NCBI GenBank assembly: GCA_029977705.1
Contig: JAPOKJ010000008.1
Location: 1 to 64,000 of the forward strand
DNA: 64,000 nt
Direction of reading: 5' to 3'
Origin: Burkholderiales bacterium
GTDB taxonomy: Bacteria > Pseudomonadota > Gammaproteobacteria > Burkholderiales > Burkholderiaceae_E
Notes under the pieces: generated by a model
The model's input: the letters and a program-made list of their open reading frames with translations, nothing else
What the model was told of the DNA's origin: nothing
The model's database searches: none
Shown here: positions 29,040-30,376 of the stretch, piece after piece
How positions within the stretch are numbered: the first letter of the stretch is position 1
Layout of the letters: each line of letters begins with the position of its first letter
Position numbers and translations under genes: made by a program

Positions 29040-29243
29040 ATGGCTACAGGCACGGTGAAGTGGTTCAATGACGCCAAAGGTTTTGGCTTCATTACCCCTG
29101 ATGAAGGCGGAGAAGACTTGTTCGCGCATTACTCGGCGATCAAGATGGACGGGTTTCGCACCCTCAAGGAAGGTCAGAAGGTGCAATTTGACGTGGTGAG
29201 CGGCCCCAAGGGCAAGCAGGCCGCGAACATTTCGGAGCCCTGA
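29040..29243 (+). CDS. cspA: Cold-shock domain protein (CspA family)
   Basis: Single cold-shock domain, 67 aa, a nucleic-acid chaperone that melts RNA structure. RNP1 is KGFGFITP and RNP2 DLFAHYSAI, preceded by GTVKWFNDA. The ribosome site AGAGAGGA lies seven bases before the ATG. Divergent from clpS across 283 bases, a layout common in Burkholderiales. Followed by a GCAA-loop hairpin. It may be constitutive rather than cold-induced; the sequence alone cannot tell. Confidence 0.98.
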
Positions 29244-29286
29244 GCAGCCCGCAAGGCCGGAGATCACCCCGGCCCTGCAGGTCGCC

Positions 29287-29314
29287 AAGCCCCCGCAAGG
29301 GGGCTTGTTGCTTT
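29287..29314 (+). terminator. cspA terminator hairpin
   Basis: AAGCCCCC-GCAA-GGGGGCTT (29287-29306): eight-base stem capped by a GNRA tetraloop, followed by TTG-rich sequence rather than a pure T run. Confidence 0.75.
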
Positions 29315-29589
29315 CAACGGATCAGTGGTCGTGGCAGGCCGATCGGCGGTACCCGCCAGGCTCTCCTGCAAAGCGGTCCGACACTGTTGGCGCCCTGCCA
29401 CTGCGCGGCGCAGGGCCCGCTTTTTGTCATATCATCGCGCTGCTTCATCGCCGAGGGGAAAGGATCCAGGGGGCCATTGAAGGCCCTCACCGGCCGGTGA
29501 ATGCCCGGGCGGGAAACCGTCAACCGAAAGCAATGGCGCACGTTGAATCACCTGACCGCTTTGGTCAGTCCACTTAATCAGAGGTAAAC
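29315..29589 (+). other. Non-coding stretch before the micro-gene: hairpins, possible small RNA or long leader
   Basis: No protein-coding frame of any quality. In order: a short GGCGG/CCGCC hairpin (29345-29357); a GCCCTGC/GCAGGGC stem (29392-29416) followed four bases later by TTTTT, a weak terminator; TATCATCGCGC (29430), resembling the local -10 context; then four compact palindromic elements, GGGCC/GGCCC near 29473, the 12-base palindrome CACCGGCCGGTG near 29489, GCCCGGGC near 29507 and CTGACC/GGTCAG near 29552. The last lies just before the ribosome site of the 15-codon gene. It could be a structured 5' leader of that gene, with a separate short RNA upstream. Confidence 0.4.
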
Positions 29590-29637
29590 ATGGCTGGTAA
29601 AAAAGGCAAAAAAGGCAAAGCTGCTCCCAAGAAGTAA
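29590..29637 (+). CDS. 15-residue Lys/Gly/Ala-rich small protein
   Basis: A complete micro-gene: ATG, 14 further codons and TAA, preceded by AGAGG with a five-base spacer and followed 46 bases later by a strong terminator. The product is MAGKKGKKGKAAPKK: eight Lys, no acidic or aromatic residue, and a repeated GKK unit. I do not recognise a characterised family. The basic, tail-like composition would suit nucleic-acid or ribosome binding, which is inference. It sits alone between cspA and the DUF192 gene with a structured 160-base leader. Confidence 0.65.
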   Translation: MAGKKGKKGKAAPKK

Positions 29638-29682
29638 GCTTGAGCTTGCACGTCGGCCGGGTCTACTTCGGTACAGGCGTTC

Positions 29683-29709
29683 AAAGGGCAGACCGAGGTC
29701 TGCCCTTTT
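29683..29709 (+). terminator. Terminator downstream of the 15-codon gene
   Basis: Eleven-base perfect stem (29683-29693 with 29698-29708), four-base loop CGAG, ending in TTTT. It closes a self-contained unit around the micro-gene. Confidence 0.9.
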
Positions 29710-29869
29710 GCATTGCGCACCGGCACAGGGCTCCCCTGGCCACGCGACGAGCCGCTACCATCCCACCGGCCGCAATGGCGGCTACCATCGCTTCAAGACC
29801 GTCCAGGACCTGCCTTCCTACGACCTTTTTTCATCCCTGCCCTCATTGCCGGGCCCCGCGGAGACCCTC

Positions 29870-30376
29870 ATGATGACGCCCACCTTGTCGATTCCGGCCT
29901 TCCGTTCCCTTCGCCATGCCTTCGTGCTGCTGCTGGCAGCACTGGCCCTGACAGCTGCAGGCGTTCGTGCACAATCGGCCGACGACCAGCCCAATCCGCG
30001 CCTGCCCGGCGTCAAGCTGCAGGCCGGCATGCACCTGATCACGGCCGAGGTGGCCAGCGAACCGGGGACGCGGGCCAAGGGCCTGATGCATCGCACCCAG
30101 CTGGGCAATAACGAGGGCATGCTGTTCATCTTCGAGCGCAAGGCCCAGCACTGCTTCTGGATGCGCAACACCCTGATCCCCCTGTCGATCGCCTTCATCG
30201 ACGATGACGGCCTGATCGTCAACATCGAGGACATGGCGGCCCGCACCGAGGACAGCCACTGCCCCCTGCGGGCGATCCGCTACGCCCTGGAAATGGAAAA
30301 AGGCTGGTTCGCCCGCAAAGGCATCCAGGCAGGCACCCGGCTCGGGCCCAAGACCTTCTTCGCCGCGAAGCCCTGA
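29870..30376 (+). CDS. Exported DUF192 protein
   Basis: 168-aa protein with an N-terminal signal peptide (HAFVLLLAALALTAAGVRAQ) and a DUF192 domain: AEVASEPGTRAKGLMHR, NEGMLFIFE, CFWMRNTLIPLSIAFID and the closing ALEMEKGWFARKGI are its conserved blocks. The biochemical function of DUF192 is not established. Start is the first of two tandem ATGs, six bases after GGAG. Convergent with icd; the shared hairpin at 30432-30464 ends both transcripts. Found near cspA and icd in other Burkholderiales as well. Confidence 0.9.
   Translation: MMTPTLSIPAFRSLRHAFVLLLAALALTAAGVRAQSADDQPNPRLPGVKLQAGMHLITAEVASEPGTRAKGLMHRTQLGNNEGMLFIFERKAQHCFWMRNTLIPLSIAFIDDDGLIVNIEDMAARTEDSHCPLRAIRYALEMEKGWFARKGIQAGTRLGPKTFFAAKP

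Follow-up and report, generated by a model that had tools for sequence, protein, structure and literature searches.

A lysine-rich 15-codon mini-gene with a predicted SigAb-like/NF006550 ECF σ factor promoter in a Burkholderiales genome

A 64,000-nucleotide stretch of a Burkholderiales genome (GenBank assembly GCA_029977705.1, contig JAPOKJ010000008.1, positions 1 to 64,000; hereafter the window) carries at 29519-29710 what is, with a probability that we put at roughly 0.78, a complete transcription unit, in which a SigAb-like/NF006550 ECF σ factor would drive a transcript of approximately 160 nt for a member of a family of small Lys-rich exported proteins that is without its signal peptide. 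In the mechanism we propose, the NF006550 ECF σ factor of the same genome would recognize GTCAAC-N16-CGTT at 29519-29544, and the transcript would carry a hairpin at its start and end at an intrinsic terminator. The product in relatives is presumably an exported, disordered protein connected with envelope or metal stress; here the signal-peptide part would be gone, with the start codon, the ribosome site and a Lys-rich 15-mer left behind. A retained, regulated transcript with an exported product that has been lost or reduced in this genome is the most likely description of the unit, the features of which are collected in Table 1.

Table 1. Positions of the mini-gene, its signals and its neighbours in the window, and of the NF006550 gene elsewhere in the same genome
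Feature	Position	Strand	Remarks
cspA, upstream neighbour	29040..29243	+	cold-shock domain (Pfam CSD)
cspA terminator	29286-29307		terminator scan
-35 box GTCAAC	29519..29524	+	identical in the window and 10/10 family relatives
-10 box CGTT	29541..29544	+	16 nt 3' of the -35 box
Predicted transcript start region and 5' hairpin CTGACC-GCTTT-GGTCAG	29552..29568	+	fold
Ribosome-binding site AGAGG	29580..29584	+	sequence; ends 5 nt before the ATG
15-codon ORF	29590..29637	+	MAGKKGKKGKAAPKK; Lys-rich 15-mer, then TAA
Intrinsic terminator	29683..29708	+	fold; 11-pair stem, then TTTT
DUF192 gene, downstream neighbour	29870..30376	+	Pfam PF02643; marks the common position in relatives
Own NF006550 (PRK09047) ECF gene	G000:C127:19094-19666		272-273.5 bits; cut-off 173

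The 15-codon frame and its expression signals

The 15-codon frame (codons ATG GCT GGT AAA AAA GGC AAA AAA GGC AAA GCT GCT CCC AAG AAG TAA) is a genuine feature of the sequence that chance translation does not explain. The initial annotation had called its composition unlike chance translation of a G+C-rich region, and this was borne out when all mini-ORFs of the window (ATG or GTG start, 10-40 codons, both strands; n = 1181) were compared, as this frame alone contained at least 30% Lys in a window with 65% G+C; among 103,937 mini-ORFs from 60 simulated Markov-1 windows, 30% Lys was reached by 3 and 40% by none. The 8 Lys of 15 reported earlier are to be corrected to 7, encoded by five AAA and two AAG codons. 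The 15-mer has a net charge of about +7 and contains neither Asp nor Glu, and no hydrophobic stretch or signal peptide was seen in it. An in-frame TAA is located five codons 5' of the ATG, and a longer form of the ORF is therefore ruled out.

The ribosome site had been described as good; AGAGG is indeed present, with GAGG in 8 and AAGG in 2 of the 10 relatives described below at the matching place (by eye). The terminator, located 46 bases after the stop codon, also deserves the word strong given to it, with a stem of -21.2 kcal/mol (z -3.84), and a hairpin followed by a T-run is found 3' of the gene in all 10 relatives (by eye); the list from a consensus terminator scan of the window does not contain this stem. 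For the structured leader that had been claimed, the hairpin exists but its strength does not stand out, as the 41-nt leader (its start predicted from where the -10 box lies) folds at -8.8 kcal/mol with a z of -1.07, which is unexceptional alone. Two related stems were observed elsewhere: a nearly identical copy of the terminator stem is found 3' of another gene in family genome G057, and a related stem is found at G000:C21:8562.

Together, these signals and a promoter that the initial annotation had not mentioned support a separately transcribed small gene, at least as far as it can be recognized in the DNA, and one that routine annotation would miss. A nucleic-acid related role had been suggested from adjacency to cspA; this suggestion is unsupported because cspA has its own terminator and the mini-gene its own promoter, and because the relatives' proteins start with signal-peptide-like N-termini.

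Relatives at the DUF192 position

The exact coding pattern occurs in 1 of 74 family genomes, i.e., its own, and is absent from the 73 others; allowing up to 3 mismatches yields 3 of 74 (the own genome, L096 and L098). The surrounding 331-base region has matches in 2 of 101 genomes, the second consisting of nothing but a terminator-like piece 3' of another gene. As the exact pattern is absent from relatives, neighbour genes were used to find the position, with DUF192 (65 of 74 genomes) and ClpS (62 of 74) as anchors at 30 loci each, plus 40 stretches selected by place. The stretch upstream of DUF192 was examined in 48 relatives, with no genomes of the same genus among them. A short gene for an export-like, Lys-rich protein is located directly 5' of DUF192 in 10 of these 48 (genera g3, g10 and g16); the encoded proteins have 38-95 residues, a signal-peptide-like N-terminus (10/10, by eye) and a Lys-rich tail (e.g., MKKLIAILMASMFAVGAAYASDAKKDDKKADAKKEQKK). 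cspA is found on the same stretch in seven of the ten, and the contigs are unconnected in the other three. Neither a small gene nor the promoter was found 5' of DUF192 in the remaining 38 relatives, and the gene is therefore patchy in its distribution.

These small exported proteins share with the window copy the promoter, the position, the ribosome site, the Lys-rich end and the terminator, and differ from it in having a signal peptide and acidic residues; the window copy, at 15 codons, is the only one without a signal peptide and roughly matches in length the mature portion of the shortest relatives' proteins. Two of the 10 relatives (L030 and L132) end in KKAE; the remaining 8, like the window copy, have a C-terminal KK before TAA. 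With regard to conservation of the ATG, the frame and the ribosome site, which the initial annotation had made the measure of a true gene, start position and ribosome site are conserved, but the reading frame recurs merely as the Lys-rich end because the relatives' signal peptide is missing from the window copy. The mini-gene thus looks like a shrunken family member without an export signal, and the absence of the signal peptide may be due to deletion, decay or an assembly error.

We found no name for this protein family; in a Pfam and NCBIfam profile search the relatives' proteins all scored under the curated cut-offs, and one relative's protein gave no match among plasmid records. The acid-shock protein Asr is an exported, basic, low-complexity protein linked to stress, and the relatives' proteins are likewise exported-like, basic and of low complexity; the best of them nevertheless scored 19.8 bits against the Asr model (NCBIfam NF033636; cut-off 50), and they are not members. 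Among named genomes, the first 24-base pattern of the frame was found in 54 stretches, none titled Burkholderiales, many of which are the starts or insides of longer frames such as those for ribosomal proteins (by eye). Two other Lys-rich frames that start with MAGKKGKK, both in unrelated named genomes and both without a clear ribosome site, were seen in L046 at about 1890-1940 (18 codons; MAGKKGKKDKKAVPSGGK) and in L082 at about 359-410 (17 codons).

The promoter element and the NF006550 σ factor group

All 11 family sites (the window and 10 relatives) have a spacer of exactly 16 nt between the two boxes, and the spacer letters are unconserved; this combination of fixed length and free letters is therefore promoter-like and not that of an RNA structure. 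In a leave-one-out matrix from which the window was excluded, the window site ranked first of the window's 127,930 positions (18.2 bits; next 11.3), and it also ranked first (18.9 versus 5.7) with a matrix made from ECF loci only (75 sites). When the ECF-locus matrix was applied to 98 family loci, scores above 13 were obtained for sites before small genes only; two exact boxes antisense near cspA with no small gene behind them, both in one genome (L114/L137), scored under 13. Three family boxes (L159-L161) have a spacer of 17. A promoter-model scan of the own genome, in which 150 of 3226 candidates were scored, matched at least 5 sites with an E of 10 or less, with the window as the best (0.02).

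Searches beyond the family used two models. R1, which models the 58-base element from sequence alone, was searched against 399 genomes of the order and matched in 181 at E up to 0.1, mostly weakly. The best 30 places were inspected, four of which were the window and family members already in the model; among the other 26, the element precedes a small export-like Lys-rich protein in 8 (L180, L184, L191, L193, L194, L199, L201 and L204, with a spacer of 17 in L184), a cytochrome-c-like protein in 1 and neither in 17. At least 4 of the 8 are beside a recognizable clpS/cspA/DUF192/mnmA-type neighbourhood, with cspA/clpS near L199 and L201, DUF192 near L199 and L204, and mnmA-like frames (by eye) near L180, L191, L194 and L201. 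The small cytochrome-c-like frame behind the element is located around 1500 in L186, a family genome. R3, a model with more members built from small-gene promoters only, was searched against 369 class genomes at E up to 0.003 and matched in 10, including that of the window. Four of its 10 non-own matches are directly 5' of an ECF σ gene (L212, L217, L220 and L221), and a fifth (L215) precedes a secreted-protein frame with an ECF gene behind it.

Among these loci, L212, L217 and L220 encode ECF proteins with 38-43% identity to one of the own ECF factors (E 7e-45 to 2e-34), versus a best E of 6e-13 to the other three. The L212 protein passes the NCBIfam model NF006550, as does this own factor (Table 1), which has DUF3619 and DUF3106 genes behind its gene; the three other own ECF-type genes fail. 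NF006550 is present in 95 of 369 class genomes, and in 8 of the 9 non-own genomes matched by R3 versus 86 of 359 others (p 1e-4). The model itself names a σ factor only, without a promoter or target, and no papers naming NF006550 were found. The ECF Hub may list a promoter for it.

A reverse test started from the 90 strongest of the 102 listed NF006550 places, with the genes located by tblastn; motif searching located ECF genes in 26 of 89 cases only. The exact GTCAAC-N16-CGTT element was found in sense orientation within -600 to +90 of 60 of the 90 genes, and was not found at the other 30; five of the 60 had turned up in the motif search beforehand, and 55 of 85 remain without them. The spacer was 16 in 60 sites and 17 in 5, with none at 12-15 or 18-20; there were 5 antisense sites (four with spacer 16) and 3 downstream sense sites. 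Most NF006550 genes thus have the same element as the mini-gene, and by their sequence the two boxes in the window are a predicted ECF σ promoter. Autoregulation was considered as a route to the own σ factor and rejected, since the element is absent at all four own ECF loci: it was not found upstream of the own NF006550 gene (L223, -600 to +90), and it was likewise not found upstream of the ECF gene in G164, the one other member of the order among the NF006550-bearing genomes. The σ-promoter link proposed here therefore rests on group resemblance, and expression of the own NF006550 gene would be controlled otherwise.

At ECF loci in other orders (L222-L311), frames behind the element code for highly charged secreted repeat proteins (type GDRIEERLDARGD) or for secreted EF-hand proteins, at times divergent from the ECF gene; the antisense sites L278 and L306 face such divergent EF-hand frames. 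As these products are charged and secreted, the common theme appears to be a small charged exported protein. In addition, an antisense exact element in L248 and L249 (two genomes) faces a frame starting MSDSLRDQLIKAGF, possibly a further σ target.

Relation to SigAb, competing explanations and meaning

The element has a published counterpart. In the published account (PMC12153292), core boxes GTCAAC (-35) and CGTT (-10) were defined by mutagenesis for SigAb, a copper-responsive ECF factor of Acinetobacter that is termed Acinetobacter-specific, with a spacer of 17 and tolerance of 16; its direct targets are three, the operon sigAb-aabA-aabB (σ factor, membrane anti-σ factor and exported protein), relA and the small RNA SabS. 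SigAb has the same core boxes as the window, with a spacer of 17 there and 16 here, and a very small direct regulon with a small transcript among its members, as with the mini-gene; in both systems genes for a small membrane anti-σ factor and an exported protein seem to follow the σ gene, if the own DUF3619 and DUF3106 genes are read in this way. The likeness of SigAb to the NF006550 system here is one of promoter boxes and operon layout, and, in contrast to sigAb, the own NF006550 gene is without the element. The comparison suggests that SigAb-type promoter specificity may be much wider than Acinetobacter. A more far-reaching idea, which we consider doubtful at present, is that the ECF system is widespread, with SigAb as one of its branches, and that its conserved output is a very small transcript, closed by a terminator, which encodes a tiny exported protein of high charge; the window product would then stand between small mRNA and small RNA, having kept promoter and transcript and lost the export signal, and SabS may share this origin.

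The strongest competitor to a shrunken exported-protein gene is the possibility that the RNA itself is the product, i.e., a small regulatory RNA under the same σ factor with the 15-codon frame as a relic. Such an RNA would account for the recurrence of promoter, leader and terminator although no more than 15 codons of coding sequence are left, and has a precedent in SabS, which SigAb drives directly (PMC12153292). However, ribosome site and start position have been kept, and the window has no Rfam match at the gathering score (at E up to 5, chance-level matches only). Conserved RNA structure in the leader was also considered and rejected: 11 of 19 leaders have a perfect stem of 5 or more pairs close to the start, but all of these, except that of L180, are weak relative to shuffled sequences, and RNAalifold found no consensus structure in the leaders, leaving at most a minor feature. 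We thus regard an RNA product as possible and clearly less probable than the shrunken gene.

It is unlikely that the 15-mer serves as a functional cytosolic polycationic peptide that binds, for example, RNA, DNA or polyphosphate. The charge, the clean codon run, the good ribosome site and a Lys run far beyond chance would all suit such a role; on the other hand, the exact form is missing from 73 family genomes, and the relatives' proteins have a signal-peptide-like N-terminus, and the family would therefore act outside the cytosol. If the 15-mer is synthesized at all, it would presumably stay in the cytosol.

We consider it very improbable that the signal peptide is missing merely from this assembly and that the true gene is full length; the assembly comprises 143 contigs and low-complexity genes can misassemble, but the site is inside a 90-kb contig, the spacing of ribosome site and ATG is correct, and the residue pattern, with Asp and Glu absent, is unlike that of the relatives. 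Least credible of all is a chance frame within an intergenic stretch, which could draw on the absence of a sister-species copy from the comparison set and on a 331-base region otherwise unmatched in 100 relatives bar the terminator-like piece, and which is contradicted by the composition control, the first rank of the promoter and the position and signals common to 10 relatives.

Read as a shrunken member of the exported family, the unannotated mini-gene is tied by independent lines of evidence to a specific σ group and to a promoter that would be active under that group's control, and it provides an example of a small mRNA with a shrunken coding part and retained regulation. For an ECF group known at NCBI simply as 'RNA polymerase sigma factor', within a little-studied family of bacterial stress σ factors, the sites described here furnish a set of candidate targets, and small transcripts of SigAb-type promoters may turn out to act as small mRNAs that encode charged proteins for export.
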